Of a DNA stretch of 41,523 nucleotides, positions 10,128 to 39,145 are shown piece by piece. The notes under the pieces are model-generated. The model was given only the letters and a program-made list of their open reading frames with translations, made no database searches and was not told the DNA's origin. The translations under genes and the position numbers were made by a program. Source of the stretch: Planctomycetaceae bacterium (lineage in GTDB: Bacteria; Planctomycetota; Planctomycetia; Pirellulales; Thermoguttaceae); NCBI GenBank assembly GCA_031269105.1, contig JAISZO010000384.1, forward strand, positions 1-41,523, written 5' to 3'. Within the stretch, counting starts at the first letter, position 1, and each line of letters begins with the position of its first letter.

Positions 10128-12536
10128 ATGAATATTTCGCTTGATTGGATTTCGGATTTCGTGGACGTTTATGGGTTGGAACCCAAAGAAATCGCCAACC
10201 GCCTAACTCTTTCCACCGCCGAAGTGGAAGGCGTGGAAGTATTGCGGCGGTTTGTCGAAGGCGTTGTGGTCGGCGAAGTGACGGCGGCGGAAAAAATCAC
10301 GGACGCACGCGGCAAAACGCTGACCTTTTGCACGGTCGATTGCGGTAAAAAAAAATATACGACCGTTTGCGGCGCTCCGAATGCGCGGGTCGGACTGAAA
10401 GCCCCGTTCGCTCCGGCGGGAACAAATCTGGCGCATCACGTTGTCATTCAGGAATCGGAAATGGCGGGAAAGCCGTCGCAGGGGATTCTTTGCAGCGCAA
10501 GCGAACTCGGCATGAGTCAATGGCATGACGTCGTTTTTGAATGCCCTTTCTCGACCGAAAACGGGATTCCGTTTTCCGAACTCGTTCCGCCGACCGACGT
10601 TTTAATTGAAATCGACAACAAAAGTCTGACGCACCGTCCCGATCTTTGGGGGCATTACGGTTTTGCGCGGGAATTTTCCGCCGTGTTCAAACGTCCGCTC
10701 CGACCGTATCCGCAGCATGATCTGTCGCAGTACGATCAACTTCCCGCGTTTCCGATTACGCTGGAAGATCAGGAAAATTGCCCGTGTTATACCGCGATTT
10801 TATTCAAAATTTCGCAGGGAATCGTACCGTCGCCGATTATCATGCAACGCCGGTTACACGCGCTTGGTCAGCGGACATATAATCTGCTGGTGGATGCGAC
10901 GAATTACGTTAATCACGAACTCGGACAGCCGACTCACGCGTTTGACGGCGATCTTATTCAAGAAATCCGCGTCGCGCAAATGGAAAAGAACGCCCAATTT
11001 GAAACGCTCGACGGTCAGACTCGCGATTTGCTTGCGGAAGATTTGCTGATTTGGGACAGGGAAAAACCGGTCGCGTTGGCGGGAATTATGGGCGGATTGG
11101 CAACCGAAGTCACCGCGAAAACGAAAACCGTTTTATTGGAAAGCGCGAATTTCAAGTCGGGACGAATCCGCCGCACGGCGTCGCGTTTGGATTTGCGGAC
11201 AGACGCCTCGCAGCGATATGAAAAAAGTCAGCCGCCTTCCAATGTAAAAGTCGGAACGTCGCGGATTCTCGACTTGATTGAACTGTCGGGAGTCGCGTTT
11301 GAAGTCGCAAGCCGGTTCACGGTTGCCGGAAATCCGCACGACAATTGGCGAACCGTAACGCTCGCGCCGGAACGGCTCGAACAGCTTGCCGGAATTCGTC
11401 TGTCGCGGGAGACGATTCTCGAAATTCTCGCATCGCTTGGATTTCGCCCGACCTTTGAAAAGGACGGAACGCTCAAAGTCGAAACGCCGCCGTACCGAAG
11501 CGCGAAAGATATTTCCATTGCTCCCGATATTATTGAGGAGATTTTGCGGATTTACGGTTACGATAACATTCCGCCGATTATGCCGGAATCGCCGCTGCGT
11601 CCGCTGTATCGCGAGGAATATCTTGAATTGGAAATGCGGGCAAAGAAACTTCTTGCCGGAGCGCATCGGTTTTACGAAGTGCATAATTACGCTTGGTTGA
11701 ACGATCTATGGATTGAAAAAATCGGATTTGATCCGGGCGAAACGTTAACGTTGCGGAATCCCGCCGATCAATCGTGCAGCCGCTTGCGGACGACGCTGAT
11801 TCCGAATCTGCTGGCGTTGACGCCGCGCAACCGCACGCATCGGGACGCTTTTCGTCTGTTCGAGTTAGGCGTCGTTTATTTCCCAGACGGTAAGAATAAA
11901 ATTGAGCGGAAGGCGCTTTCCGGCGTCAGTTATCAACAGTCCGACGCTCCGACGCTTGAGGATCATTACCGCGAAATCAAAGGGGCGATTGAAGACCTCG
12001 GTGCGATTTTCGCCGACGCTCCGCTTCGTTTTGACGTCAAAGAAAACGCGAGCGCCGCAAAACTTCCGCCTTGGCAATTGCCGAAGCATTGGGCGGAAAT
12101 TTTGCAGGGAAACAATGTTGTCGGCGCGATGGGAGTGATTCCGAAACCGCTTCGTGAAATCATAACGCCGGAAGGCGGACAGATTGTCTGGTTTGAAATA
12201 GATTTCGGAAAGTTTCAAGGAAATTTGTATCCCGCGCCGAAATATACGGAACTCCCGCGTTTTCCCGGCTCATGGCAGGATTTTTCGATGGTTTGGAGCG
12301 TTGACTCCGGTTTCGCGGAACTCGAAAAGCGGCTTGACCGATTCGTGCATCCGCTTTTGCAAAAACGCGAATTTCTTGTTTCCTACAAAGGAAAGGGATT
12401 AGAAAAAGGGATGGCGAGTTATTCGTTTCGCTTTTTGATTGGCGCGGACGACCGCACGCTTTCCGGCGAAGAAATCGAGGCGTTTCACTCGGCGATGCTT
12501 GATCATTTAAAGCGGAACGAAATTGCGTTAAGATGA
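10128..12536 (+). CDS. pheT: Phenylalanyl-tRNA synthetase beta subunit
   Basis: The 802-residue length and layout fit PheT, which with PheS charges tRNA-Phe. The N-terminal MNISLDWISDFVD opening and an EMAP-like tRNA-binding OB domain (about residues 39-150, with TVCGAPNARVG) are present. The B3/B4 editing domain (NKSLTHRPDLWGHYG, then DATNYVNHELGQPTHAFD), B5, and catalytic-like region follow. The C-terminal FDX-ACB anticodon-binding domain begins near YTELPRFPGSWQDFSMV. No pheS gene lies next to it; the upstream neighbour is divergent and unrelated. The ribosome site is weak. Confidence 0.96.
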   Translation: MNISLDWISDFVDVYGLEPKEIANRLTLSTAEVEGVEVLRRFVEGVVVGEVTAAEKITDARGKTLTFCTVDCGKKKYTTVCGAPNARVGLKAPFAPAGTNLAHHVVIQESEMAGKPSQGILCSASELGMSQWHDVVFECPFSTENGIPFSELVPPTDVLIEIDNKSLTHRPDLWGHYGFAREFSAVFKRPLRPYPQHDLSQYDQLPAFPITLEDQENCPCYTAILFKISQGIVPSPIIMQRRLHALGQRTYNLLVDATNYVNHELGQPTHAFDGDLIQEIRVAQMEKNAQFETLDGQTRDLLAEDLLIWDREKPVALAGIMGGLATEVTAKTKTVLLESANFKSGRIRRTASRLDLRTDASQRYEKSQPPSNVKVGTSRILDLIELSGVAFEVASRFTVAGNPHDNWRTVTLAPERLEQLAGIRLSRETILEILASLGFRPTFEKDGTLKVETPPYRSAKDISIAPDIIEEILRIYGYDNIPPIMPESPLRPLYREEYLELEMRAKKLLAGAHRFYEVHNYAWLNDLWIEKIGFDPGETLTLRNPADQSCSRLRTTLIPNLLALTPRNRTHRDAFRLFELGVVYFPDGKNKIERKALSGVSYQQSDAPTLEDHYREIKGAIEDLGAIFADAPLRFDVKENASAAKLPPWQLPKHWAEILQGNNVVGAMGVIPKPLREIITPEGGQIVWFEIDFGKFQGNLYPAPKYTELPRFPGSWQDFSMVWSVDSGFAELEKRLDRFVHPLLQKREFLVSYKGKGLEKGMASYSFRFLIGADDRTLSGEEIEAFHSAMLDHLKRNEIALR

Positions 12537-22648: not shown

Positions 22649-24367
22649 ATGGCGACACGCAGACTTGAACAGGTTTTGGTCGATTTGGGTTACATCGACG
22701 ACGAACAGATGGAACTTCTGGTCGAGGAACATCAGGAGCGAAACGGCGAAAAAATGGGGCAAGTTGCCCTCAGCATGGGATTGATTAACGAGGATAAACT
22801 CTCTCACGCGCTTGCCGAACAATTTGGTTATCAAGAAGTGAATTTGATTGACTTAACGATTCCGCCGGAAGTTTTGGCGCACATGTCGGAGCCGATGGCG
22901 GTGTTGTATAAGGCGGTACCGGTGAGTTTTCGGAACGACGTCTTAACGATTGCCACATGCGAACCGGATAACTTGCTTGCCATTGACGAATTACGGAACT
23001 CGCTTGGTTATCAAATTCGCATTGTGGTGACAACGCCGAAAGATATTGAACAAGCGTTAGGACGTTATTACGCCGCCGACATGGAAACTGTCGAGTCGAT
23101 TTTGAAAGAAATTCAGGAAGACAAAGAACTGCAAAAAATGGCGTCTACGTTGGAATCAAGCGATACAATTGATTTAGCGAGCGTCGAGGCGTTGATCGAC
23201 AGCGCGCCGGTCAAAAAATTGCTCAATATGGTTTTTTTGATGGGAATCAAAGATCATGCCAGCGACTTGCATTTTGAGCCGTTTGAAGACGAATTTAAAA
23301 TACGGATTAAAGCGGACGGAACGTTGTATGAAATGGTTCCGCCGCCGCGTCATTTGGCTTCGGCGATCACGACGCGTATTAAAGTGATGTCGAATCTTGA
23401 TATTGCGGAACGCCGTTTGCCGCAGGACGGACGAATCCAAATGCGAGTCGCGGGACACCCGATTGATTTCCGCGTCAGCGTGTTGCCAACGATGTTCGGA
23501 GAAAGCGTTGTTTGCCGAATACTTGATAAGTCGGTTGTGATGCTGAATCTGGACAATGTCGGAATGGATCCGCAATTATTGAAACAGTTCCGCAAAACGA
23601 TTGAAGTACCGAATGGAATTGTGTTAGTAACGGGACCAACCGGATCGGGAAAAACGACGACGCTTTACGCGGCGTTGAGCGAATTGAATATCATCACCGA
23701 TAAACTGATGACAACGGAAGACCCGGTGGAATACGACATTGACGGAATCGTGCAGATTCCGATTGATTCCGATATCGGCAACACGTTTGCGCAATGTTTG
23801 CGGTCGATTTTGCGGCAGGACCCGGACAAAATCCTTGTTGGAGAAATCCGCGACAAAGAAACGGCGGATATTGCGGTGCAAGCGTCGCTGACAGGTCACT
23901 TGGTATTCAGCACGTTACACACCAACGACGCGCCGAGTACAATAACGCGGCTACGCGATATGGGCGTTCCGGCGTTTTTGATTACCGCGACGGTTCAGGC
24001 GATTTTGGCGCAGCGGCTTGTGCGGAAAATCTGCACCGGATGCCGTGAAAAATTTGTGCCGACGCCGGAGCAATTATTAGAATTAGACATGTCGCCGCGC
24101 GACGCGGAAGGTAAACCGTTTTATCGCGGACGCGGCTGTCCCGCGTGCAACAACACCGGATACAAAGGACGGACGGCGATTCACGAGTTTATGTTGATTA
24201 ACGACGAAATCCGCGAACTGATTAATCGCAACGCCTCCAGCGGAGAAATGCGAGCCGCCAGTCAACGTTACGGAATGCACACGCTTCGCGACGCCGGAAT
24301 GCAAAAGATTTATCAGGGAATTTCCACGATTGAGGAAGTCGCCAGAGAAACGGCGCTGGAAATGTAG
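22649..24367 (+). CDS. GspE/PilB-type assembly ATPase (second copy)
   Basis: The 572-residue protein has the same plan as the copy at 19122: an MshEN-like N-terminus (RLEQVLVDLGYIDDEQMELL), then SDLHFEPFEDEFKIRIKADG. Walker A is GPTGSGKTTT with Lys335; ILVGEIRD and STLHTND follow. A tetracysteine site (CTGC and CPAC) lies in the C-terminal part. The two copies differ throughout, so this is an old paralogue and not a recent duplication. It precedes gspF and is probably the extension ATPase dedicated to this pseudopilus. Confidence 0.93.
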   Translation: MATRRLEQVLVDLGYIDDEQMELLVEEHQERNGEKMGQVALSMGLINEDKLSHALAEQFGYQEVNLIDLTIPPEVLAHMSEPMAVLYKAVPVSFRNDVLTIATCEPDNLLAIDELRNSLGYQIRIVVTTPKDIEQALGRYYAADMETVESILKEIQEDKELQKMASTLESSDTIDLASVEALIDSAPVKKLLNMVFLMGIKDHASDLHFEPFEDEFKIRIKADGTLYEMVPPPRHLASAITTRIKVMSNLDIAERRLPQDGRIQMRVAGHPIDFRVSVLPTMFGESVVCRILDKSVVMLNLDNVGMDPQLLKQFRKTIEVPNGIVLVTGPTGSGKTTTLYAALSELNIITDKLMTTEDPVEYDIDGIVQIPIDSDIGNTFAQCLRSILRQDPDKILVGEIRDKETADIAVQASLTGHLVFSTLHTNDAPSTITRLRDMGVPAFLITATVQAILAQRLVRKICTGCREKFVPTPEQLLELDMSPRDAEGKPFYRGRGCPACNNTGYKGRTAIHEFMLINDEIRELINRNASSGEMRAASQRYGMHTLRDAGMQKIYQGISTIEEVARETALEM

Positions 24368-24427
24368 AAAGTTAAAAGTTAAGAACTAAAAATTAAAAGC
24401 GTCTTGAACTATGATTTATTTGATATA

Positions 24428-24568
24428 ACGCCGTAGGCGTTCCCTATAAAATAACTTCCAGTGAAACTGATAGTAAAAAGGCACAACAAAAACAATTAAC
24501 ATCAATGAGTATGAAAAGGTTTAACGCCGTAGGCGTTCCCTATGAATACCCCCCAGTGAAACTGGGGG
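24428..24568 (+). repeat. Two tandem outer hairpin units of the IS200-like element
   Basis: Each unit is ACGCC-GTA-GGCGT, then TTCCCTAT, then a second stem. The left unit (24428-24473) has a decayed second stem. The right one (24524-24568) has an intact CCCCCAGT-GAA-ACTGGGGG stem. The units repeat at a 96-base period, including the following word with ACAACAAAAACAAT. Confidence 0.75.
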
Positions 24569-24617
24569 TAAAAAGTACAACAAAAACAATCAACTCCGTA
24601 GGAGTTACCCAAGAACA

Positions 24618-24746
24618 ATGAACAGTTACCGCCAAATCGTGTATCACCTTGTTTTTTGTACTTACAGCAGAAAAAATACGATTCCTGAAACGCATCATAA
24701 ATCCTTGTATCAATTTATTTGGGGCGTCATTAAAAACCGAAAATGA
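24618..24746 (+). pseudogene. IS200-like / REP-associated tyrosine transposase, N-terminal fragment
   Basis: The 42-residue frame MNSYRQIVYHLVFC... ending IKNRK is the true N-terminus of the transposase whose later part survives at 31401 and 32621. Here CGA-AAA-GGA has become CGA-AAA-TGA, a stop, and homology ends a few bases on. The catalytic HUH and Tyr regions are absent. A small hairpin ACTCC-GTA-GGAGT at 24593-24605 sits between the outer hairpins and the ATG. The rest of the gap to 24936 shows nothing recognisable. Confidence 0.75.
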
Positions 24747-24936
24747 AAATTGCAATACTAATAAAAAATTATAATGTTAAGAAAACTGTAAAATTACAAC
24801 TTGAAAATAGCGTAATTTACAGTTTACAGAAAATACAAATGACAACGTTAAGAGAACGCGTAACAAGCGTTTATAAAAACGCAAAATTATTGTCGAACCA
24901 TTTTTCACTGTTTTTCATATATTAAGGAAGCAAAAA

Positions 24937-26274
24937 ATGCCACGATTTAAGTTTGAAGCCATTGATCAGACCGGGAAGGTGATTAAGGATGTGACGGACA
25001 ACGTTGCGTCGGAGGAAGAAGCGCAGGCGACGATACGTCAGATGGGATACGTCATCACGAAAATCGTCCTTTACAAAGAGCGGAAAGCTAAAGCCGCAGC
25101 CAAAAAATCAAACGGCAAGACGTTTTCGTTGGGACGAGTCCGCTCGAAACACCTGACCACGTTCACGCGGCAGCTTTCAATTTTACAAGACGCCGGTTTG
25201 CCGATTCTCCGCAGCTTGAATATTTTAATGGAGCAATCCAAGCCGGGCGCGTTGCGGAACAGTTTAATCGACGTGTGCGCCGAAATTGAAAGCGGGTCAA
25301 GTTTGTCCGAAGCGATGGCAAAATGTCCTAAAGCGTTCAATCGGCTTTTTGTCAACATGATTAAAGCAGGCGAGGCGGGCGGCGCGCTCGAAACGATTTT
25401 ACAGCGTCTTGCCGAGTTCCTTGAAAGTTCGGAACGGCTCAAGAAAAAAATTATTTCCGCGTTGACTTATCCGGTCGCGGTCGTGTTTTTTGCGACGATC
25501 ATCGTGATTTTCATTATGTTATGGATCGTGCCGCAATTCCAAAAGATTTTTGACGATTTCGGCGTTCCCCTTCCTTGGTTGACTAAAGCGTTAATTGCCG
25601 CCACAGATTTTATCCGGGACTTTTGGTTTTTGCTGCCGGGTATTCCGTTGGGAATTTTTTTGTTTGTCAAGCTGACCACAAGTTTTTCTTACGGACGGCA
25701 TGGGTTTAACCTGTTTTGTCTCCGTATTCCGATTTTCGGAATGTTGATTGAAAAAACCATTGTCGCCCGAACCATGCGAACGCTCGGAACGCTTGTCACA
25801 AGCGGCGTGCCGATTTTGGAAGCGATTCACATTACGAAAGAAACAAGCAACAACGCGGTCTTTGAAATTATGTTCCAGAAAGTGCTGGAAGGAATCCGCG
25901 ACGGCGATACGATTGCGAATCCCATGAAAATGAATCGTATTCCGATGTTCCATCCCGGCGCGTTATTCTTTTTCTTTTGTTTTATGGCGGGACCGATCGG
26001 CATGTTGTGGTATATGATGCGGTTGCGCGCGAAAATCCTTGACGACATGGTAATTAACATGGTGGACGTCGGCGAGCAAACCGGCGAGCTTGATACGATG
26101 TTGTATAAGGTTGCCGACGTTTACGAAGAAGAAGTGGAAGCGATGACGGAAGGTTTGATGAGTTTGTTGGAGCCGTTGCTGGTGATTTTTCTCGGCGGGA
26201 TTGTCGGGACTATCGTAATCGCGATGTTCATGCCGCTTATTTCATTGATTACAGACTTGTCGAGTAGTAAATAA
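24937..26274 (+). CDS. Type II secretion / type IV pilus inner-membrane platform protein GspF
   Basis: The 445 residues contain two GspF domains, each opening with the family pattern (FTRQLSILQDAGLPILRSL, then RTMRTLGTLVTSGVPILEAI), and MIKAGEAGGALE and DVGEQTGELDTML. Three or more membrane helices are present. GspF couples the ATPase to the pseudopilus in the inner membrane. An extra hydrophobic stretch (residues about 338-368, FHPGALFFFFCFMAGPIGML and following) interrupts the second domain just before DDMVINMVDVGE, which makes it longer than the usual 400. AAGGAAG precedes the ATG. Confidence 0.93.
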   Translation: MPRFKFEAIDQTGKVIKDVTDNVASEEEAQATIRQMGYVITKIVLYKERKAKAAAKKSNGKTFSLGRVRSKHLTTFTRQLSILQDAGLPILRSLNILMEQSKPGALRNSLIDVCAEIESGSSLSEAMAKCPKAFNRLFVNMIKAGEAGGALETILQRLAEFLESSERLKKKIISALTYPVAVVFFATIIVIFIMLWIVPQFQKIFDDFGVPLPWLTKALIAATDFIRDFWFLLPGIPLGIFLFVKLTTSFSYGRHGFNLFCLRIPIFGMLIEKTIVARTMRTLGTLVTSGVPILEAIHITKETSNNAVFEIMFQKVLEGIRDGDTIANPMKMNRIPMFHPGALFFFFCFMAGPIGMLWYMMRLRAKILDDMVINMVDVGEQTGELDTMLYKVADVYEEEVEAMTEGLMSLLEPLLVIFLGGIVGTIVIAMFMPLISLITDLSSSK

Positions 26275-26461: not shown

Positions 26462-27451
26462 ATGTCGTTCTATTTCAACAGACAACATAAAATCCGTCGC
26501 GGTTTCACGCTGATTGAACTTTTGGTGGTGATCGTCATCATTGGCATCCTTGCGTCAATGGCGTTTGTCGGCGGACGCGCGGCAATCAATTCCACGCGGC
26601 GGGGAATGATTCAGGTGCAAATCAAGCAGGTGGACATGGCGTTGGAAGCGTATCACCAAAAATACGGCGAATACCCGCCGGATTTTTCAGACAAAGATGT
26701 TGTAATGCGTCATGTTCGTAAACGTTGGAAAGCGTATAAAGGATCAGAAGCGGATTTTTTTAACGCAGTCGTTGAAAACGGATGGGAAATAGCAACCGTT
26801 ACGGGAAGTGGTACATCAGCAACAATCACATTGAATCCCGATGGAATTGGACATCTTGGAGCGGCGGCATTTTGGCTGGGCGGACTTTTTGATCCTTCTA
26901 CAGGAATGTTAGGCGGTTTTTCCGCTGATCCGTCCGATCCATTCAATACAGCTTCCAATCAGAGAGAAGAGCCTTTTTTAGAACTCACATTAGGAGATCA
27001 AGTAGGAGAATACACTGTTAATGGCAAACATGTTTATACGATCATTGCAAATAAATTACCAATCGTCTATTTTACTCCGACAAATACTGCCGGATATTTG
27101 AATAGAACAGGAAATTCTAATGATGATGATTATGTACTAAAAAGGTTTGTTGATGATACTAATAATCCAAATGGAATGGGACTTGTTGTTCCATACGCGA
27201 AAAATTTGTTAAATAATTTTCCTCCTCCAAGTAGTACAGTTGCCAAAGATAATATTCAAAAGATTGTTTGGCACAATCCGAAACGCTTTCAGTTGATTCA
27301 TCCCGGGTTGGATGGAAAATTTGGATCGGTAAGCGGCGCACCATTTCGTGTTATTGATCCGTCAAATGATGTGAAAACTGCGATCACATTAGAAGATGAA
27401 GACAACGAAGCGAACTTCGGCGGCGTAACGATTGACGCGGCGGGAAACTAA
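26462..27451 (+). CDS. Type II secretion pseudopilin, GspG-like
   Basis: The N-terminus is a textbook prepilin: a short basic leader ending RRG14, then FTLIELLVVIVIIGILASM with Glu19 at mature position 5. MIQVQIKQVDMALEAYHQKYGEYPP follows, as in GspG. The usual GspG is about 140 residues; this one is 329, with a long soluble extension containing Gly/Asp/Asn-rich loops. It should be cleaved by a prepilin peptidase (none in the window) and built into the pseudopilus. An AGGAG site precedes the ATG. Confidence 0.9.
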   Translation: MSFYFNRQHKIRRGFTLIELLVVIVIIGILASMAFVGGRAAINSTRRGMIQVQIKQVDMALEAYHQKYGEYPPDFSDKDVVMRHVRKRWKAYKGSEADFFNAVVENGWEIATVTGSGTSATITLNPDGIGHLGAAAFWLGGLFDPSTGMLGGFSADPSDPFNTASNQREEPFLELTLGDQVGEYTVNGKHVYTIIANKLPIVYFTPTNTAGYLNRTGNSNDDDYVLKRFVDDTNNPNGMGLVVPYAKNLLNNFPPPSSTVAKDNIQKIVWHNPKRFQLIHPGLDGKFGSVSGAPFRVIDPSNDVKTAITLEDEDNEANFGGVTIDAAGN

Positions 27452-27463
27452 TAAAGCGAAAAA

Positions 27464-27556
27464 TTAAAAGTTAAAAACGAAAAGTTTCCTGTTTTGTAGC
27501 ATTGTGATTAAAATCGTCATTGGCTCAACTTTTAATTTTTTGTTTTTAACTTTTAA
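27464..27556. repeat. AT-rich inverted repeat between pseudopilin genes
   Basis: TTAAAAGTTAAAAAC at 27464-27478 is matched by its exact complement GTTTTTAACTTTTAA at 27542-27556. Variants of TTTTTAACTTTTAA also precede other genes in the window (4587-4600, about 31913-31921 and 33194-33204), so it may be a recurring intergenic word rather than a dedicated structure. Confidence 0.45.
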
Positions 27557-27572
27557 CTTAAAGGAGATAACC

Positions 27573-28772
27573 ATGCCCCGAAAATTCATCATAACATTCA
27601 GAACGTCCGGTTTTACGCTGATCGAATTACTTTTGGTGATCATGATTCTCGGAATCATGTCCACGTTGTCGATTAGCGTGGTGCGTCAGGTTTATCATAC
27701 GTCGCGGGTTGAAAAAACGCGAATGACTATCCGCAAAATCGACCGCGTGATTATGGAAATGTACGCCAATTATGATAATCGGCGGGTAGAAACGAATGCC
27801 GGAATTTCAACAGCGTCAACGATGACTCAAGAGATGAGAGCACAGGTAACGCAAGCGGCAATTCTTTGGTGCAAACGCGATTTAATCCGTATGGAAATGC
27901 CAAGCAATTGGGATGAAGTGCGGCAATCCGACTTGAAAACCGGTTACTACGACGCTAACGACAACCATGGCTATACGCAACTTCGATTTAGAATCGGCGG
28001 CGTTAATGCGGCGTCGGCAAATACTGAAACGTCTCCTCTCAAAAAAATGTATTTAGCGACGTTCAAGGACGCGGTGGAACGAGTCAAACGGGAAAAAAAT
28101 CTATCGCAAGACGACGCGGTTAAAAAAGTTTATCATTTTGGTTCCGCGAAATGTTTGTATTTGATTGTCATGTACGGCAATCCCGAAGCGCGGGAATTGT
28201 TTTTCGATCATGAAATTCGGACGGACGAAGACGGTTTAAGCTATTTTGTCGATGGTTGGGGAAATCCGATTTATTTTCTTCGCTGGGCGCCGGGATTAAC
28301 GTTAAGCGACCGTCAACCGAATATATTAGAACCAAATCAAATGGAAATTCATTGGGATTCAGCGACAACTAAAAAATCTCAAGCGGCTGAAGAAACGCCC
28401 GATCCGCTTGATCCAACGGAAGTCGGTGGAACTTTAATGCAGAATCCCTCGTCGAATAAGAATCAAACTTGGATAAAATTAGAAACGTCGGGAACGTCAT
28501 TTAAAGGTTGGACTTTGTTACCGGTCATTATGTCTTCAGGAGGCGTTACAGATGGAAATGATAAAAGCGATAATGCCGCCGATTTTGATGATGGTTTTTG
28601 GTACAACTTCGGTATTCAAATGTACCCGACAAACGACATGTCAAATAGCTATACAATTAACGGACCTAAAGTTCATGATTCGGTTGTTGATCCGTTTTAC
28701 TTTCCGTTAGGAGCGCCATTGTCAAGCGGCGCAAATCATAATATCATTCACAATCATACGGTATTGAGGTGA
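27573..28772 (+). CDS. Pseudopilin-like protein with prepilin N-terminus
   Basis: The 399 residues start MPRKFIITFRTSG13, cleavage, then FTLIELLLVIMILGIMST with Glu18 at position 5. The rest is soluble and has no recognised motif beyond a Ser/Thr/Asn/Gly-rich tail. AAAGGAG six bases before ATG 27573 sets the start; the frame runs on upstream to 27504 without support. It is a minor or accessory pseudopilin of the same fibre. Confidence 0.85.
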   Translation: MPRKFIITFRTSGFTLIELLLVIMILGIMSTLSISVVRQVYHTSRVEKTRMTIRKIDRVIMEMYANYDNRRVETNAGISTASTMTQEMRAQVTQAAILWCKRDLIRMEMPSNWDEVRQSDLKTGYYDANDNHGYTQLRFRIGGVNAASANTETSPLKKMYLATFKDAVERVKREKNLSQDDAVKKVYHFGSAKCLYLIVMYGNPEARELFFDHEIRTDEDGLSYFVDGWGNPIYFLRWAPGLTLSDRQPNILEPNQMEIHWDSATTKKSQAAEETPDPLDPTEVGGTLMQNPSSNKNQTWIKLETSGTSFKGWTLLPVIMSSGGVTDGNDKSDNAADFDDGFWYNFGIQMYPTNDMSNSYTINGPKVHDSVVDPFYFPLGAPLSSGANHNIIHNHTVLR

Positions 28773-28777
28773 TCATC

Positions 28778-29974
28778 ATGCGAAAAACGCGAATGACGAA
28801 TCGCGCGGCTTTAACGCTTGTGGAACTTCTCGTGACCATCACGATCATGGCGATTGTTGTTGCGGTAAGCATTCCGGCGGTTAAACCGATGTTGGCGTCG
28901 AACAAAGTCAAAAACGGTGCGGAAACCGTTTCCACTTACCTCACCCAAGCCCGCGCCCGTGCGATGGAAGAAGGACGCGCCGTCGGCGTGCGTTTCGAGC
29001 GTTATACCGGAATTGAGGAAAGCGGTAATTATCCCTACAACGGCGCGGCGCTTGTTATGCGTCAAGTTGCTGAGCCAAAACCGTATTCGGGATCGGTGAA
29101 AGATGTTTATGCGATTATTGATTCATCTGGGGGAAGAATCAATTTTTGTACTTGGAACAGCGAAACTTCAACTTGGGTTAATAATTCGACAGAATCAACT
29201 TATTGGAGTAAACTTGTTTCAGACGGCGACTTAATTCAATGCGCCTTCAAAGGTCCGAAATATACAATTACTAAAGATAAAGATGGTAGTACATTTTCTA
29301 TCGACATGGGAAGAAATTCCAATGATGGTCTGCCGGAACCCAATTTTTCCGATCCTTTAACTCCTAATGATAAGCCGGTTCGTTTTCGCGTTTATCGTCA
29401 GCCGCAGCCGGATAAAATCGCGCCGACTATGGCTCCGCCGGTCGCACTTCCGCAGGGCGTTGTTGTTGACCTTGATTGTTCGGGAATGGAAAAGTGTTTT
29501 TATAATGAAACAACAATTCCTATTCGTAGAAATGAATACCCGACAATAATACGGGATGATTTTGCCGCGTTAGATTCGAGAGATAAAACTACCGTAACAA
29601 TTATGTTTTCACCAACAGGAGAAGTGGATAGAGTTTATGCCAATAAAAAAGATGGACTTACAGATGATGAAACGACTATTGTTTCAGGCAAGATTGATAG
29701 AACAGGCGGAATTATTCCTTCCGGCTTGATTTTTCTTAATATTGGTACTTGGGAACGCGCCGGTTCTTGGATTAATAACAAAATGGAAAATACTTATTTA
29801 CCAGACGATGGTTTGCGTAATTATATGGATATGAATAATTATTGGGTAACAATCTTTCCCCGAAACGGTTTAGTGCGTATTAATCGCGTAGCAAAATCCG
29901 TTGGTAACAGAGGAAGTAAAATTTCATCATCCCGCGAATTTGCCCAAAGTCTTCTTGACGGAGAAGTAAAATAA
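28778..29974 (+). CDS. GspH-like pseudopilin
   Basis: The 398 residues start MRKTRMTNRAA then LTLVELLVTITIMAIVV, with Glu16 at position 5 and Ala11 in place of the usual Gly at -1. AETVSTYLTQARARAMEEGR after the helix matches the GspH/FimT pattern (a helix, then strands with GVRFE). GAGGTGA six bases upstream sets ATG 28778. The ribosome site overlaps the previous gene's stop, so the two are translationally linked. Confidence 0.87.
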   Translation: MRKTRMTNRAALTLVELLVTITIMAIVVAVSIPAVKPMLASNKVKNGAETVSTYLTQARARAMEEGRAVGVRFERYTGIEESGNYPYNGAALVMRQVAEPKPYSGSVKDVYAIIDSSGGRINFCTWNSETSTWVNNSTESTYWSKLVSDGDLIQCAFKGPKYTITKDKDGSTFSIDMGRNSNDGLPEPNFSDPLTPNDKPVRFRVYRQPQPDKIAPTMAPPVALPQGVVVDLDCSGMEKCFYNETTIPIRRNEYPTIIRDDFAALDSRDKTTVTIMFSPTGEVDRVYANKKDGLTDDETTIVSGKIDRTGGIIPSGLIFLNIGTWERAGSWINNKMENTYLPDDGLRNYMDMNNYWVTIFPRNGLVRINRVAKSVGNRGSKISSSREFAQSLLDGEVK

Positions 29975-30182: not shown

Positions 30183-31262
30183 ATGACCTGTTTGAATATC
30201 GCATTCCATGAGAATCATAACATAGCGCAGCCGCGTCGTGGTTTAACGCTGATGGAGATATTGGCGACGGTCTTTGTGTTGGCGTTTGGACTGATGGCGG
30301 TTCTCTCGGCTCTTCCGTTTGGCGCGTATCAGCTCAACCGAATGAACATACTCGACTCCAGCGGCGCGTGCGGACGCGGCGCGTTAGCGCAAATTCGACT
30401 CGCCGATTGGCAAAAACCGGAAACGCTGAACGACATAACTGCAATTAATGAATTGGTCAATTCGTCTACTACAGATGCTATTCCTAATGGTGATATTATT
30501 GCCGATCCGTTTATCATTGATCCGTTAGGATTATTGGAACGTTCAGGTTCGCCTCGCTTTGAAAAATTTGCACTTTATCCAGCGACTGTAATCTATGATA
30601 ATTTATTCGCATTTAATCCTTTTGGAACGAATCGAACTGATTTAGATAAAAAATTCGTTTGGGGCGACGATACGATTTTTGCACAAGACAATGCGTCAGC
30701 ATCATTACGTCCAACAAAAGTACCAAGCGGAGCGGCTGCCGGTGACTTTAGTTGGCTTTATATGGTAACGCCAGTTGTATCACAAGATACAGTAACCCGT
30801 ACAGACGTAGAAAAAGCAGGTTATACATCGCCGGAAAATATAAAAGAATACAGTGTTGCAGCAGTCATTTTCAATCGACGTGATATATTTCAACAAATAC
30901 GAAGATTGAAAACAAATTATGATAATCCAACAAATACTGATATAATCAACGCCGCCGGAGGACGAATTACGCTTAATTCAAGTAATCCCGACGATTTAGA
31001 TTTATCGTCGATTAAATGGATTTTGCTGACAGGTCGAAGCACAAGATTGAACCAAACTTATACGACTACAAAAAACGGCGCTCTTGTCGCTCAGTGGTAT
31101 CGCATTGTCGGAAGCGACGAGATAACGACGCAAAACGAAACAAATTTTCAACGCCGCGTTTTTCTCATTGGACCGCAATGGGAAGGGGCGAACGCCTCGC
31201 CGGTTTACGCCGTGTTATGCGACGGCGTGGTGAACGTTTATCAAACAACAATGCCGAAGTAA
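30183..31262 (+). CDS. GspI/PilV-like minor pseudopilin
   Basis: The 359 residues have a leader ending RRG20, then LTLMEILATVFVLAFGLMAV with Glu25 at position 5, and LSALPFGAYQLNRM. This hydrophobic pattern fits the GspI/PilV group of minor pseudopilins (LxxMExL), here extended by a large soluble domain. It is the last pseudopilin before the mobile insertion; GspK follows after about 2 kb. Confidence 0.8.
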   Translation: MTCLNIAFHENHNIAQPRRGLTLMEILATVFVLAFGLMAVLSALPFGAYQLNRMNILDSSGACGRGALAQIRLADWQKPETLNDITAINELVNSSTTDAIPNGDIIADPFIIDPLGLLERSGSPRFEKFALYPATVIYDNLFAFNPFGTNRTDLDKKFVWGDDTIFAQDNASASLRPTKVPSGAAAGDFSWLYMVTPVVSQDTVTRTDVEKAGYTSPENIKEYSVAAVIFNRRDIFQQIRRLKTNYDNPTNTDIINAAGGRITLNSSNPDDLDLSSIKWILLTGRSTRLNQTYTTTKNGALVAQWYRIVGSDEITTQNETNFQRRVFLIGPQWEGANASPVYAVLCDGVVNVYQTTMPK

Positions 31263-31348
31263 GTGCAAAGCGCAAAGTGTAGAGCTAAACAATATGATGT
31301 GAGACGAGATAATAAAAAACAAAAAAATCAACGAGTACGAAAGAGTCA

Positions 31349-31856
31349 AACGCCGTAGGCGTTCCCTGTGAATAACCCCCAGTGAAACTGGGGGCAAAAG
31401 TTGGGGTGTAATACAAAACCGAAAAGGAAAATTGTATTGAATGAACGGTACGGAAAATCATATACACATCCTTTCCGATTTACACCCGACAATAGCATTG
31501 TCCGATTATATCAAAGAAATAAACGTGGCGTCCAGCAAATGGATAAAAAAAAGTGGAAATTATCCGTTTTTTACGGGGTGGGCAGAAGGTTCGTGTGCAT
31601 TAACATATTCCTATCGTGATATCGATATGATTATTGAATACATTAAGAATCAAAAAGAACACCATAGAAAAGTAACATTTGAAGATGAATATCGACATTT
31701 GTTACATGAAGCAGGAATTAAGCCGGATGAAAATTTTATTTTTTGAATTTGACATTTCCGTAATACAGGAGGCAACTCCTTCGGAGTTAGATAATTAGGG
31801 GGGATTCGAAGCCCCCAGTTTCACTGGGGGTTATTCATAGGGAACGCCTACGGCGT
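31349..31856 (+). mobile_element. Decayed IS200-like element, second copy, with inverted hairpin ends
   Basis: The left end (31349-31393) is ACGCC-GTA-GGCGT plus the CCCCCAGT-GAA-ACTGGGGG stem. The right end (31811-31856) is its mirror image. An inner hairpin ACTCC-TTC-GGAGT lies at 31775-31787. IS200/IS605 elements use such subterminal hairpins as binding sites for a single-strand transposase. Confidence 0.75.
31401..31746 (+). pseudogene. IS200-like transposase, 5'-deleted with internal stop
   Basis: It starts abruptly at Trp35 (full-length numbering) right after the left hairpin. A TGA replaces CGA at position 47, followed by ATG 31441 and a 101-residue open stretch. HIHIL (the HUH metal motif) and the catalytic-type Tyr in MIIEYIKNQ are still present. 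The stop and missing N-terminus make a working enzyme unlikely. Confidence 0.75.
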
Positions 31857-31937
31857 AAAAGCCAGTGATTTTTAACATTATACTGTATATCAACACGAAA
31901 CGGATAATGAGTTTTAACTTTTAAAGGAGATTATAAA

Positions 31938-32513
31938 ATGTCACAAGTTCCCGAATTACCGCGAGGTGCAACATTTGAAAGCGTTTGGGCGATTATGCAG
32001 GAAAATGCTTTGCTGTTAAAAGAACTCGAACAACAGGCACAGAAAACTGATAAACAAATCACCGAACTTAGCAAACAGATGGGCGGTTTGCATAATAGTT
32101 TCGGCAAAATGGCGGAACATTTAGTGTTACCGGGTATTGTCGATCGTTTTAATGAACTCGGTTATCATTTTGAGAGAGCGAGTGCGGATGCAATCGTTTT
32201 TGACAAACAAACGAGAAATAAATTAGCGGAAATAGACATTCTTTTGGAAAATGAAACGTCAATTGTTGCAGTAGAAGTTAAAACTAAACCCAAAGAAGAA
32301 GATATTTCACGCCATACGAAACGTTTGGAGATATTACGAAAACACCCAATTAAGGGAAGCGAGAATAAGAAAATCATCGGCGCAGTTGCGGGCGTCGTTT
32401 TTTCGAGTAGTGTAAAACAAGCGGTGATCAATGCCGGAATGTATGTCATCACGCAATCCGGCGATACTATGAAAATAGAAGTTCCTGAAAATTTCAAACC
32501 GAAAGAATGGTGA
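31938..32513 (+). CDS. PD-(D/E)XK nuclease-like protein (DUF3782-like)
   Basis: The 191 residues open with a helical coiled-coil part (ALLLKELEQQAQKTDKQITE), then GKMAEHLVLPGIVDRFNELG. A nuclease-type core follows: EIDILLENETSIVAVEVKTK. Asp100, Glu113 and Lys115 fit the D-E-x-K catalytic set. Families of this type (DUF3782 and relatives) are common and multicopy in planctomycetes, cyanobacteria and spirochaetes; no function is firmly known. The gene is intact, with a good AAAGGAG site, and lies exactly between two direct repeats that carry IS200-like remnants. Confidence 0.8.
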   Translation: MSQVPELPRGATFESVWAIMQENALLLKELEQQAQKTDKQITELSKQMGGLHNSFGKMAEHLVLPGIVDRFNELGYHFERASADAIVFDKQTRNKLAEIDILLENETSIVAVEVKTKPKEEDISRHTKRLEILRKHPIKGSENKKIIGAVAGVVFSSSVKQAVINAGMYVITQSGDTMKIEVPENFKPKEW

Positions 32514-32568
32514 AGTAAGTGCAGAGTGTAGAGCTAAACAACAAAATCAACGAGTACGAAAAAGTCAA

Positions 32569-33136
32569 ACGCCGTAGGCGTTCCCTATGAATAACCCCCA
32601 GTGAAACTGGGGGCAAAAGTTGTGCTTACAATAGAAAAAATACAATTCCTGAAACATATCACAAACCTTTGTATCAATTTATTTGGGGCGTAATACAAAA
32701 CCGAAAAGGAAAATTGTATCGAATGAACGGTACGGAAAATCATATACACATCCTTTCCGATTTACACCCGACAATAGCATTGTCCGATTATATCAAAGAA
32801 ATAAACGTGGCGTCCAGTAAATGGATGAAAAAAAGTGGAAATTTTCCGTTTTTTACGGGGTGGGCAGAAGGTTCGTGTGCATTGACATATTCCTATCGTG
32901 ATAGAGATATGATTATTGAATATATTAAGAATCAAAAAGAACATCATAGAAAAGTAACATTTGAAGATGAATATCGACATTTGTTACATGAAGCAGGAAT
33001 TAAGCCGGATGAACATTTTATTTTTTGAATCTGACATTTCCGTAATACAGGGGGTAACTCCTACGGAGTTAGATAATTAGGGGGATTCGAAGCCCCCAGT
33101 TTCACTGGGGGTTATTCATAGGGAACGCCTACAGCG
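32569..33136 (+). mobile_element. Decayed IS200-like element, third and longest copy
   Basis: The left end (32569-32613) carries both hairpins. The right end (33092-33136) is inverted, with one stem base changed (ACGCC-TAC-AGCGT). The inner hairpin ACTCC-TAC-GGAGT lies at 33057-33069. Confidence 0.75.
32621..33028 (+). pseudogene. IS200-like transposase lacking its first 13 residues
   Basis: The frame is open from Cys14 (full-length numbering, from comparison with 24618-24746) to the natural end at residue 148, a normal length for this family. The HUH motif HIHIL and the Tyr in MIIEYIKNQ remain. The start codon and first strand are gone, joined directly to the left hairpin. A TTG at 32669 could start a shorter product, but a functional enzyme is unlikely. 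Confidence 0.75.
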
Positions 33137-33223
33137 TAAAAGCTGGCGATTTTTAACATTTTGCGATATATCAACACGAAACGGATGATGAGTTTAATTT
33201 TTAACTCCCAAAGGAGAATAATC

Positions 33224-36200
33224 ATGACAACGACACATAAAATTCAAATACAAACAATAACGCAAACGATAATAAAAAATGCGGCGCGGCGCGACGGGGT
33301 GATTTTGCTGCTTGTACTGGCGATGATGACGATGTTTGCGATGCTCATTGCGACGTTTTTAATCGTAACGAGCCAGCAATACCGCGAGGCGGAAAGCGCG
33401 TCGAAAATAGGACGCTACGCCGATTCTTCGCCTAGCGACGATCTTCAGCAGGCGTTAGACGCGATTCTTGTCGGCAGTAATTCCAAATCGTCCGTCATCC
33501 GCGCGTTCAGCATTGCGGAAAATATGTACGGCGAACCGCATGGGATTCACGGCTTGACTGGTTATGCGCAATATGCGGGTAACAACGTGATTGGAAAAAC
33601 AGGCGTTCTTAATTCTGATGGAGAATTGCAGCGTTATCTCCTTAATTATGCTCCCGGCGACGAACCGGCAAGTTATGTGAATTGGTTATCCACAATTGGC
33701 AATGTGTTTACCGTCCGCGATCCGTCCGATCCGCAAAAATGGTTGAGTACGAGAATTGTTTATGCGGATTATGATAGTAATTTGGAGAAGTATTATGTCG
33801 ATGTTTGGCCCATTGCAAATCTCCAAGACCCAACAACAATTCTAGGAAGTGTCACAGACTACAACTTTTACATCAATCCGCCGGCGTACAGCGGAACCGG
33901 CGCGGGATATGTGCGACCGCAATTACCTCTTGATGTAAGCAGTAATCCGATTGTGGATTTTTGCGTCAATTACATTCGACCAAGATTGACGGCTGAAGAC
34001 GGCGATAATTATGTTACTAATAATGGCGTTCAAAATGTTTCTATTCCTTACGCTTTGCAATTGAATCCGAATGCGCCGACAACAAGTAGCGGGCTTCCTG
34101 AATTTGGAAATCGGCTTGACGCTTTTGCATGGTCTCTCAATCCTGATTACACTGCGCCGGACATGCGCAATCCGTTCCTTGCGTGGATTGATCCGAAGTT
34201 TACGGCTGACGGAAATGATTTGGCAATTGATCCCGTAAATTCCATTGTGATTCCGTCGTATCATCGACCGTCGCTTATTGAAGGTTATCGTGCTAAAATT
34301 GGTTCTTTGTATAACCCAAATGCTCGCCCAGCGGATCCGCATCCCGCTCATGATTTATTGAGAAAATTTGTCATGCGTCCTTTGCCGTTTGATCATCAGA
34401 ATTTTGACGGTTCCAATCCGACATTAGCAAACGATACGCCCATTATTTTGGCGGAACGACTTGCCGATACCACCGGAAAACATCTTGATCTCGACAACGA
34501 CAGCGACGGAGTGCTCGATAGCGTTTGGATTGACGTGGGACTTCCTGTTCGCTTTAATGCGCAAGGACAACCGTACAAACCGCTGGTCGGAATTCTTATT
34601 GAAGACCTCGATAGCAAATTAAATGTGAACGCTCACGGAAATCTGGCGGAACAATTAACAACGACGCCTTATGGCGTTGGTCATGGTCCGGCGGGAGTCA
34701 ATCTGACAATGGGAGTGAACTCATTGTTTCAATCAAATCCATCGGCAGCAGGAAGCATTATTCCTGAAGATATTGTAGAACAGTTGCTCAATGGACGTTA
34801 TGCGGATTCGCAAAAAACGGAATTTATTCCGCGAGATTCTTCCGCATTGACGCAAACACTTTTAACGCAATTTGGCGGTTTGCCGCTCGCGAATCCATTA
34901 ATCAATACTTATGGAAAATTACCTGATTTTTGGGATCAAGGAAATTTGGCATTTGATCCATTAGGAAATTTATACAATACTTATACAACTAATCCCTATG
35001 CAGTAGAATTTCCGGCTACAAATATTGTATGGAATTTTCCAGTATCTTACGAAACATTTCCCTATTTATTTGATCCGAATCGAAAAACACCGTATGACCA
35101 ACCCTTCACATTGGCGGAATTGGAAGCGGTTTTGCGGAACAAAGACGGCGACAAAGATTCATTGCCGGATCGTTTGCGGTCAATATTCCGCGATGAAAAA
35201 GACTCGGCAGAAAACGTAATTGCTCAACTTCCCGGCGTCTTGAAACTTGCCCGATATAACACAACCGCAATATCGAACGACGTGCCGGTTCCCGGTCCGG
35301 CGCTTGCCGATCAGGAATTTTCGAGCATTTTTGCGTTGATTCGTGAATGTGTGCGAAAAGAAGAAAAACGAGCGAGAACAACTTTAAACGTTGACGGCAT
35401 TACGAATCAGTTGATTTTAATGTTGCCGGAAGAAATACGTCAGGGCGGCAAAATCAATTTGAACAAATTGGTCGAAGACCCGATGATGAACTTAATCGCA
35501 TTGTCTGGGGAAGATTATGAAAAAGCCCTTTATGAACGGATGAAATTCGCTCGCGGGATTTACATTATTTTGATGGCGTTGTCGTATGATAAATTGTACG
35601 GCGTTAAAGAAAGCGGAATGGCTGTAGAACAATATGTTGTCTATCCTTATGTTGAACCGTCGTTTTTAGAAGCGGAAGCGATCAATGACTTGTATCAAAA
35701 ATTTCATACGGCAGAAGTTAACGGGACGACTTTAACGGATGATCAAATTCAGGCAAAAATTGACTTTTATCAAGTTTGCCGCGAATTGGCAGTAACACGT
35801 TTGGCGCAATGGTCAATTAACCTTGTTGAGTTTACCGACATTGACGCAATTATGACGCCGTTTATTTTCGACGTCAACCCGTTTGACGGCGACGGTTGGG
35901 GAACGGACGCCATCGGCGCATCGCTTTTCACTGATGAATTTTCGCGTATAAGCGCGGCGCATAATGATTACCGCCTCATTTGGGGAATGGAACGCCCCGA
36001 CTTGCTTTTGACGGAAACATTGGCGTTTCATAAGAGAAATGTGGCGGATACGGAATGCGGTGGGAAAGTATTAACTAAAGATTATTACGAAATTAATTCA
36101 ACTAATTTAAAATACTTTCAAGTCAATATTGATTCGGATGGGACATGGAGTTATAGTTTTAATACTTCTGATCCAACTATCCTCGCAGATATAAATAACA

Positions 36201-39145
36201 ATCTGGATTCAATGTACGATCAAATTCGGATGCCGGAAGGTCCTGCTTTTTTGGAATTGTACTGTGCCGCCGATTCGAATCGTCCGAATTTCCCGCAAGA
36301 ACTTTATATAAATAAACAATTGGATTTAGGACGTTTGGTTGCTAATGGTTACCCTGTTTGGCGAGTGGTTGTTGGAAACAGTAATTATAAAAGAACCGCA
36401 GGAAACAGTACTGGTCAGTATGTTGCGGAAGCTCATATGGATTACAGTATTTTGCATAATCTGAAAAAATTTGGCGAGATATTTTCATTTCAATTGAGTA
36501 ATCCTTCTCTTTTAAAAGGAAGCTGGGTTCCTGCGGAACTTAAACCAAAATCAATAGACTTGGATCGTATTGTATGGTTTACTTCCATGAAACCTACTGG
36601 TACTGATGCAGAACAGACTTATTACAACCATTCCCAAAATACAACAACTACGCCTTTAACGCTTGCGCCTAACCAATACCTTGTTGTTGGTCCGCGAGTG
36701 GAAACTTTTTTGACTTCACAAAGTTATACAAGCGCGGGAACTTATGGCAACACGTTAGGGTGTCCCAAAATTGATTTGAACGCTCTCATTGATACCTCGT
36801 CGTCGATAGGTACATATAAAGCGATGATTGCGGCGGCGGAAGTTCCTGATCCTACATTAGCAGAAACAATACCGGGTTGGGGAACAACTTGGACGGATTA
36901 TCAACAAAATCTTACGCTTGGAACAGAACTATTGAACGAATCGGTTGGATTAGGATTCAGCATCTCCGAGCCGTACCGTTCCGCCTATTATACTAAACCG
37001 TCAAACCCTAACCACGCGTATTTTCCTTTAGGGACAAAAGATCCGGACACGGCAACGTATGAAGCAACCGTTGCAAATCCGCAGGAAAAATTAACTGGTA
37101 CAATGCCAATTTCTGAAGCTGGTCTTGTTGGAAACGGCGTTGCACCATTCTATAAATCTGCGTTTTTACAACGGCTTGCCGATCCGTTACGGGAATACGA
37201 TTCTGAAACGAATCCTTATATTACGGTGGATTGGAATATGTTTGATCTGAAAGTTTATTCGGGTGAAAGAAGTAATATGAATGATGAAAGCGAAAATTAT
37301 TTTGAACCGTCGTTAAAGGAAGGAACGGCAACAAAATATTTTTCATCGCGTCAATGGGGAATTGAAAACACATTAACCGGATTTTCTCGTCCGTTACCGA
37401 ATCTTTGGGACAGATATTTGGATTTGAGCGATGATATTTTTGACGATCCGAAAACAATGGTGGACAGTTCAACAGGTGTGGCAGAAGCGGAAAAAAGCGG
37501 TGTTTTTCAGGCGATTGATTTTTCATCAATTGATTTTTCATTATTCGCAGACAGAAATATTCCCCTTCCTTATCAACCGGAATACTCCGTTCCTGTTACT
37601 GCTGATGCTTTGGCTTTTCCGCAATTTCCGGTTCATTCGCTTGGACGATTGGCGACAACACCTGATTTTATGCACCCGAATCTGCCAGCGCTAACAGGAG
37701 AAATTATTGTACCGATGAGTCAAACACAGGCGCAAACATTATCTATGCAATATAGCTATGTTAATAACATCCAGTATTATGGTTCTCCTATTCGAGTCAA
37801 TATGCAAATGCCGCCATTTTTACCTGAAAATTTACCGATTGTTCTTCCGTCCGTTAAACCGCTTATTACATTCCAAAATCTTGCATGGAATAACGCTCCG
37901 TTTGCCAATTCGTATGAAGCGATGCAGGTTCCGGCAAGTTCGCCTGGTCGTTTCGGCGTAGAATTTGTGGATAAAGTGAAGGATACGAAAGCAAGTAAGA
38001 CGAATTATTTATTGGTTGATCAGTTATGGACAACGTTGCCCGATTTAACAACGGGAAATTCAGGAATGCCACTTGATTCTGATGGTGCTAAAAATATCAC
38101 AAAACGTTCCGGTTCGCTTGGTTCCAATGTGCGGTTTGGACATTTGCTTAATTTCCAACACGCGCATTATAGTTTGTTGACTGATACAAATAAGCCAGTC
38201 ATTGATACAACATTGTCAGTAAAACCAACCGTTGCCGATAATGATGATATTAACACTCCCTTGATTCCTCGACAACTTCAGTTTGGTTATCCGCATCTGA
38301 ATTTTAACATTCCGACAAATCCTAATGATCCTTACGAAGTGACCCGTGCGGAATTTGTGTCGCTGGATTTGGGAAACGCGCTCAATTTCCTCAACGTCCC
38401 GTCGCGGTTCGCCGGAACGCGGGATTGGTATCCTGACGCAAACGGAAACGCTTGTTATTATTCCCGATTCCGCGAACCGGGCAAAATCAACATCAATACG
38501 GCGTCGCGAGCGTCCATTGCCGCCGCGTTAGAAAACAGACCGCTCAATGAAAGCGGTATCGGTGCGGATTGGTTTGAGAATTTTGACCGTCATCGCGACG
38601 AAGCGCCTTATCGTAGTTCCGCGTCTTCATGGTTGATGACGCAAAATGGCGCGTATGCTTCGCAAACTGATTCCACGTTATTACGTAGCGATGCGTCTGT
38701 ACTTCGCGATCCAGCAGCGTCGCAAAACCCAAATATGCCTGTTTTTGCTCAAAATATATCCGATTCAACCGCCGCTCCTAACTCCTATATGGCATTAGAA
38801 GGAATCCAACGGCTCAGCGATATGACGACGACACGTTCCAACGTTTTCGCTGTTTGGATTACACTCGGATATTTTGAAGTAGAAAAGTTGCCAAATTCTG
38901 GTACTGTAACGATTCCCGGTAATAATGGAATTTCCTATAATTTGAATGACTCGATAGATAGCGCTCGTTTTAACGCGATTTACCCCGACGGTTACATGCT
39001 CGGTAAAGAAGTCGGTATCGATACCGGCGAAGTGCGGCGTCATCGGGCGTTTTACATCATTGACCGCACGATTCCGTTTGGTTATCGACGCGGAAAAAAA
39101 TTGAATTCCGATAACGCGGTACTTCTCAAACGAATGATTGAATAG
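33224..39145 (+). CDS. Giant GspK-like minor pseudopilin
   Basis: ATG 33224 follows AAAGGAG and gives 1973 residues, about six times the usual GspK (roughly 320). The N-terminus has the GspK form: RRDG25, then VILLLVLAMMTMFAMLIATF, with no Glu at mature position 5. EPGKININTASRASIA (from residue 1751) matches the GspK helix-hairpin-helix-like segment. DLDNDSDGVLD (422-432) looks like a calcium-binding loop, and GspK proteins do bind calcium. The region between is unrecognised, with many Pro, Asn and Tyr residues. In type II secretion GspK caps the GspI-GspJ-GspK tip. It is the last gene of the locus. Confidence 0.82.
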   Translation: MTTTHKIQIQTITQTIIKNAARRDGVILLLVLAMMTMFAMLIATFLIVTSQQYREAESASKIGRYADSSPSDDLQQALDAILVGSNSKSSVIRAFSIAENMYGEPHGIHGLTGYAQYAGNNVIGKTGVLNSDGELQRYLLNYAPGDEPASYVNWLSTIGNVFTVRDPSDPQKWLSTRIVYADYDSNLEKYYVDVWPIANLQDPTTILGSVTDYNFYINPPAYSGTGAGYVRPQLPLDVSSNPIVDFCVNYIRPRLTAEDGDNYVTNNGVQNVSIPYALQLNPNAPTTSSGLPEFGNRLDAFAWSLNPDYTAPDMRNPFLAWIDPKFTADGNDLAIDPVNSIVIPSYHRPSLIEGYRAKIGSLYNPNARPADPHPAHDLLRKFVMRPLPFDHQNFDGSNPTLANDTPIILAERLADTTGKHLDLDNDSDGVLDSVWIDVGLPVRFNAQGQPYKPLVGILIEDLDSKLNVNAHGNLAEQLTTTPYGVGHGPAGVNLTMGVNSLFQSNPSAAGSIIPEDIVEQLLNGRYADSQKTEFIPRDSSALTQTLLTQFGGLPLANPLINTYGKLPDFWDQGNLAFDPLGNLYNTYTTNPYAVEFPATNIVWNFPVSYETFPYLFDPNRKTPYDQPFTLAELEAVLRNKDGDKDSLPDRLRSIFRDEKDSAENVIAQLPGVLKLARYNTTAISNDVPVPGPALADQEFSSIFALIRECVRKEEKRARTTLNVDGITNQLILMLPEEIRQGGKINLNKLVEDPMMNLIALSGEDYEKALYERMKFARGIYIILMALSYDKLYGVKESGMAVEQYVVYPYVEPSFLEAEAINDLYQKFHTAEVNGTTLTDDQIQAKIDFYQVCRELAVTRLAQWSINLVEFTDIDAIMTPFIFDVNPFDGDGWGTDAIGASLFTDEFSRISAAHNDYRLIWGMERPDLLLTETLAFHKRNVADTECGGKVLTKDYYEINSTNLKYFQVNIDSDGTWSYSFNTSDPTILADINNNLDSMYDQIRMPEGPAFLELYCAADSNRPNFPQELYINKQLDLGRLVANGYPVWRVVVGNSNYKRTAGNSTGQYVAEAHMDYSILHNLKKFGEIFSFQLSNPSLLKGSWVPAELKPKSIDLDRIVWFTSMKPTGTDAEQTYYNHSQNTTTTPLTLAPNQYLVVGPRVETFLTSQSYTSAGTYGNTLGCPKIDLNALIDTSSSIGTYKAMIAAAEVPDPTLAETIPGWGTTWTDYQQNLTLGTELLNESVGLGFSISEPYRSAYYTKPSNPNHAYFPLGTKDPDTATYEATVANPQEKLTGTMPISEAGLVGNGVAPFYKSAFLQRLADPLREYDSETNPYITVDWNMFDLKVYSGERSNMNDESENYFEPSLKEGTATKYFSSRQWGIENTLTGFSRPLPNLWDRYLDLSDDIFDDPKTMVDSSTGVAEAEKSGVFQAIDFSSIDFSLFADRNIPLPYQPEYSVPVTADALAFPQFPVHSLGRLATTPDFMHPNLPALTGEIIVPMSQTQAQTLSMQYSYVNNIQYYGSPIRVNMQMPPFLPENLPIVLPSVKPLITFQNLAWNNAPFANSYEAMQVPASSPGRFGVEFVDKVKDTKASKTNYLLVDQLWTTLPDLTTGNSGMPLDSDGAKNITKRSGSLGSNVRFGHLLNFQHAHYSLLTDTNKPVIDTTLSVKPTVADNDDINTPLIPRQLQFGYPHLNFNIPTNPNDPYEVTRAEFVSLDLGNALNFLNVPSRFAGTRDWYPDANGNACYYSRFREPGKININTASRASIAAALENRPLNESGIGADWFENFDRHRDEAPYRSSASSWLMTQNGAYASQTDSTLLRSDASVLRDPAASQNPNMPVFAQNISDSTAAPNSYMALEGIQRLSDMTTTRSNVFAVWITLGYFEVEKLPNSGTVTIPGNNGISYNLNDSIDSARFNAIYPDGYMLGKEVGIDTGEVRRHRAFYIIDRTIPFGYRRGKKLNSDNAVLLKRMIE

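Follow-up and report, generated by a model that had tools for sequence, protein, structure and literature searches.

Y1 transposase genes of the HUH class are known that lie between inverted palindromic motifs also dispersed elsewhere in the genome, as in REPtrons (PMC6006769), and TIR-flanked Y1 transposases (TIRYTs) have already been reported (PMC3733652). In Table 1 of the 2018 survey (PMC6006769), the TnpA-Y1 subclass 1.2 is listed without REP. Unequal crossing-over and gene conversion between direct repeats that flank a gene are likewise established processes. The window analysed here, a stretch of 41,523 nucleotides from a Planctomycetaceae bacterium, is one contig (C197) of a draft genome in many contigs (G000), and it contains a small nuclease-like gene placed exactly between two 0.7-kb direct repeats. 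The original prediction was that this gene had arrived on a circle carrying one repeat unit. Our preferred reading, to which we give a probability of about two in three from the sequence comparisons, is that the gene came first, and that a REP-tnpA-REP remnant later appeared in one of the adjoining spacers and was copied by recombination to the other, probably from the downstream unit (U2) to the upstream unit (U1).

Results

The setting is a type II secretion-type cluster in which a profile search identified T2SSE (22649-24367), T2SSF (24937-26274), and pseudopilins with an N_methyl domain (26462-29974). The open reading frame that follows these neighbours, the last pseudopilin-like gene (30183-31262, forward strand), is without a Pfam match of its own in the profile search and has a 73% identical ortholog in the sister species (G001). 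It is followed by U1, the nuclease-like gene (31938-32513, forward strand), U2, and a large open reading frame (33224-39145, forward strand) with a 74% ortholog in the sister species. This last gene had been called GspK; neither Pfam nor NCBIfam gives it any family match.

Alignment of U1 (31260-31937) with U2 (32514-33223) over their full length gave 625 identical columns out of 658 ungapped ones, with direct repeats of 300 nt at 97%, 87 nt at 97%, and 123 nt at 90%. The repeats begin at the stop codons of the preceding genes (31260-31262 and 32511-32513), and they lose their similarity at the Shine-Dalgarno sequences, each of which is specific to the gene that follows. The match through the element and its boundaries at the upstream stop codon and downstream ribosome site are thus as originally described. 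By eye, the right-end ribosome sites in the window match those of the orthologs in the sister species, which argues that exchange stopped there.

Both units have the same order from left to right: spacer flank, 46-bp double hairpin, start-less tnpA, inverted double hairpin, and spacer flank. In U1, alignment to U2 places a left flank of low-complexity filler at 31263-31316 (forward), which is followed by a REP-like block at 31317-31403 (forward; double hairpin 31350-31395) recognized from the repeat alignment and its dispersed copies. The first tnpA remnant (31404-31746, forward) matches Y1_Tnp profile positions 46-121, lacks the N-terminus, and carries the motif YIKNQKEHH; to its right are the second REP-like double hairpin (31811-31856, reverse strand, inverted relative to the left one and supported by repeat alignment and folding) and the right flank (31857-31921, forward). 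The corresponding parts of U2, placed by alignment, are the left flank (32514-32535, forward), the left REP-like block (32536-32622, forward; double hairpin 32569-32614, also supported by folding), the second tnpA remnant (32623-33028, forward, also a profile match), the right double hairpin (33092-33137, reverse), and the right flank (33138-33204, forward). Within each unit the 46-bp hairpin arms are 98% complementary, and the U2 copy folds far better than shuffled sequences (z -4.6).

The two remnants match the Y1 transposase domain PF01797 at 44.3 and 50.4 bits (cut-off 23; E 2e-11 and 3e-13), which bears out their description as IS200-like. Neither retains an intact reading frame with a start, and the N-terminus is gone from both. 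The second is longer on its 5' side by 61 bp of tnpA, kept in U2 and absent from U1, that lies between two TTG triplets, so that the U2 truncation is nested within the larger U1 deletion. These unequal deletions agree with the earlier view that the units are not fresh copies of each other. Between gspE and gspF there is a third, older remnant, absent from the original prediction, that consists of two REP-like blocks and the 5' end of tnpA (24427-24752, forward; 80-87% identity to U2). Remnants are present upstream of gspF in both species, with the 5' half of tnpA in the window and the 3' end in the sister species (L077 4700-4790), in which gspF is preceded by a radical SAM gene in place of gspE.

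The flanks outside the hairpins bear on how the pair arose. The right flank of U2 has just one other copy in the window genome, that of U1, which is 14% divergent, and the two align with a score of 93, where shuffled sequences reached at most 37.5, far above what chance would give. The left flank is short, with 21 of 23 columns matching beside a 34-column gap in low-complexity filler. Because the right flank is limited to these two sites, the pair was, in agreement with the original prediction, most likely copied as host DNA and not by two transpositions. Two remnants mobilised in trans could instead have inserted independently; near matches to the double hairpin are scattered over both genomes (12 in that of the window and 5 in the sister species, copy numbers that derive from searches), indicating that the family was mobile, and the third remnant between gspE and gspF is in keeping with this. 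Against such insertions stand the 65-nt match beyond the hairpins on the right, which has no further copy in the genome, and the tnpA truncation, common to both units and nested. Given the matching flanks we disfavour independent insertion and consider it quite improbable.

Divergence between the units is uneven, at 19 of 539 positions (3.5%) in the core of hairpins and tnpA and 11 of 87 (12.6%) in the flanks (p=0.0012). The core thus has a more recent common ancestry than the flanks, and a single duplication event alone fits poorly. Conversion of the core after a single duplication could also produce this heterogeneity. The pattern fits copying of the unit between older spacers that already resembled each other.

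We compared the same junction in related bacteria using draft genomes that are split over many contigs. On contig C121 of the sister species the order is pilin, spacer S1, gene A, spacer S2, gene B, spacer S3, and the downstream gene, and there is no REP and no tnpA in any of these three spacers. The two gene copies share 95.8% DNA identity with each other and 75% protein identity with that of the window. In a second species of the genus (G002), the pilin and the downstream gene are separated by a spacer of about 285 bp without the nuclease-like gene, and the gene was in none of the loci from other genera examined around this junction.

The presence of the gene without units in the sister species implies that the gene predates the units, unless this species lost both without trace; such exact loss of both is less likely. 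This arrangement is the reason that we reject the original proposal, in which a circle made of the gene and one unit recombined with a homologous unit already present at the pilin/downstream-gene junction. The exact position of the gene between two direct repeats and the junction empty of the gene in G002 speak for the circle. Besides the unit-free gene of the sister species, the uneven divergence along the repeat opposes it, and no donor locus was found in the genome; a search for other DUF3782-like genes with the same units had been suggested, and the only other homologue found in the window genome, on contig C16, is 35% identical and has no units. We regard integration of a circle as very improbable, the least credible of the alternatives.

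The spacers of the sister species record an exchange. S1 and S3 match at 84 of 105 positions (score 103.5 versus a shuffle maximum of 39.5). The left half of S2 is 98% like S3 and 79% like S1, while its right half is 98% like S1 and 78% like S3. By this pattern S2 is a clean hybrid, as unequal crossing-over between gene-flanking spacers would yield, and it indicates that spacer recombination acts at the present locus. An insert of roughly 110 bp in S2 (L077 about 11740-11953) ends in the inverted repeats TAGACCTTTTCTCTAAC/GTTAGAGAAAAGGTCTA and lies at the crossover region.

The likeness of these spacers comes from their membership in a family of intergenic repeats about 80 bp long, roughly AAAGTTAAAAACTAAAAGTTGGCAAATGATTRTTTCAATCACAGAGYGAAAAATTCCGCTTGCGAAACTTTTCACTTTTAAC, that is dispersed over a dozen or more sites of the window genome. 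Copies include C248:2623, C307:11103, C194:4904, and others (L241-L253) in that genome and S1/S3 in the sister species (L077 11045-12640). A common spacer, which had been named as an observation that would count against the original prediction, therefore accounts for S1 and S3; it does not serve as the whole explanation, nor does chance, as the right flank in the window has no such further copies. Between the spacers of the window and those of the sister species no alignment is left (scores 37-39.5 versus shuffle maxima of 36-40), so the ancestral spacer is untraceable into the units.

The tandem gene pair at this position in the sister species, together with two copies on one contig in G012, also lend themselves to another history, in which unit and gene were duplicated once in tandem, one gene copy was later lost, and the core was then converted, with no separate spread of the unit. 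This would need an extra, precise gene loss, and the flank divergence demands the additional conversion step. We consider it unlikely, and retain the reading in which the gene preceded the units.

The 191-residue product of the nuclease-like gene and its homologues have a coiled-coil-like N-terminus and a C-terminal domain common to all. Across 11 homologues E98, D100, and E113-x-K115 are invariant, which is the PD-(D/E)XK catalytic pattern. A fold search with the AlphaFold model, which is of moderate confidence (pLDDT 67), gave EndoMS/NucS, N.BspD6I, and NucC as top PDB matches (best E 2.6e-3, TM about 0.3). The predicted assignment as a PD-(D/E)XK nuclease-like protein is supported by the invariant residues, in line with the original prediction, and the fold matches may point the same way. 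Its DUF3782 (PF12644) label is less firm, with 12.6 bits for the window protein and 23.0 for the best homologue, both below the cut-off of 24.4. By title and abstract, the DUF3782 literature returned by our search has nothing about the present gene. PADLOC matches to PD-(D/E)XK domains and coiled coils were weak and partial, and we make no defence-system assignment; nor do we propose a phage origin, as a PHROGs search gave nothing firm.

MAGs with the labels Treponema, Spirochaetes, and Synergistaceae often contain homologues, at up to 54% identity, which suggests interphylum transfer of the gene. Direct repeats flank 7 of 74 homologues compared with 8 of 315 other genes (p=0.011), a weak enrichment that takes in the window case and several matches that are short or distant from the gene, and for these reasons we do not claim that the family is generally repeat-flanked. 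Direct repeats stand on both sides of the homologue in G012 (L093 1069-2140) and of one in a Treponema MAG (L139 3550-4650); they measure 117 bp at 99% and 48 plus 31 bp at 87%, and are by eye unrelated to those of the window.

For the tnpA family, the NCBIfam model transpos_IS200 (NF033573) gave 30 and 34.4 bits for the remnants, below the cut-off of 55 as expected of truncated copies, and 60.1 bits for an intact relative on contig C10 (L127). The RAYT model NF047646 did not match the remnants and gave 20.9 bits for the C10 relative (cut-off 80). The Y motif corresponds to the subclass 1.2 pattern Y---Q--HH, an assignment made by motif only. The C10 relative and one in G012 (L104) have inverted double hairpins of their own, with cores TTATTCATA and TTATCCAGA. 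Among Planctomycetota, inverted flanks (E<1e-4) accompany 28 of 44 tnpA relatives, a set that includes the two remnants of the window and in which not all members have the subclass-1.2 Y motif, and 0 of 115 other control genes. The double hairpins that flank tnpA often have a [GA]TAG-like foot, and YIxxQxxHH is seen in many of the proteins (L104 1000-2150, L127 1374-2040, L256-L284). On contig C178 of G012, from another genus of the family, an intact REP-flanked tnpA lies inside a pseudopilin cluster (L082 5990-8558), where a HEPN/nucleotidyltransferase pair is also found between pilin genes.

Discussion

The order of events that we favour would begin with the PD-(D/E)XK-like gene, which became established after the last pseudopilin and ahead of the large downstream gene before the window species and its sister split. 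In the window lineage, an already truncated and immobile IS200-like REP-tnpA-REP remnant would later have entered one of the two spacers that flank the gene. Homologous recombination between the two similar spacers may then have copied it into the other, either by gene conversion or by one expansion and one contraction through unequal crossing-over. Non-homologous coding sequence on either side would bound the exchange and so explain why the limits of the repeats coincide with stop codons and ribosome sites. Around its stop codon, the pilin gene of the window has the same GAAGTAAGTGC that trails the nuclease-like gene, while the sister species has GAAATAGAAAACG and G002 has AAGTAGG. With the nested tnpA deletion, these few bases suggest U2 as the source and U1 as the recipient.

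On the best account, then, the units are a dead transposase remnant and not the vehicle of the nuclease-like gene. Exact bracketing by direct repeats may give a gene the look of a mobile cassette even when the repeats are the later arrivals. Spacers that resemble each other recombine, and an exchange of this kind is recorded in the hybrid spacer of the sister species.

A more tentative proposal, which we hold to be doubtful, is that the units descend from a REPtron class not yet described, made up of Planctomycetota Y1 transposases with the subclass-1.2 signature, inverted double hairpins, and a [GA]TA[GA] foot. Its hairpins, dispersed through genomes, would serve as substrates of recombination, and exchange between spacers that hold them would shuffle cargo genes of small size, for instance the PD-(D/E)XK-like family, into and out of operons; the cargo half of this proposal is weak. 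If a wider survey agrees, inverted REP-like flanks would be added to a Y1 subclass listed as REP-less, and a source would be available for the hairpin repeats scattered through Planctomycetota genomes.

Collectively, the recombination in both species resembles established unequal crossing-over and gene conversion between gene-flanking direct repeats, seen as a hybrid spacer with tandem copies in the sister species and as a homogenised spacer in the window. The mechanism is the same, and the difference is that the repeats here are intergenic spacers and remnant units. Like members of the IS200/IS605 family, to which the intact C10 relative belongs by the NCBIfam cut-off, the units carry a Y1 transposase gene, here truncated; they differ in having inverted double-hairpin flanks, where IS200 has subterminal hairpins. 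They resemble REPtrons and TIRYTs in that tnpA lies between inverted palindromic motifs with further copies scattered through the genome (PMC6006769, PMC3733652). In contrast to REPtrons, both copies are truncated, each flank is a double hairpin (core TTATTCATA) and not a plain GTAG REP, and the Y motif YIKNQKEHH belongs to a subclass listed as REP-less. Since TIRYTs are already known, the hairpin-flanked tnpA of Planctomycetota is a variant of a known arrangement and not a new kind.
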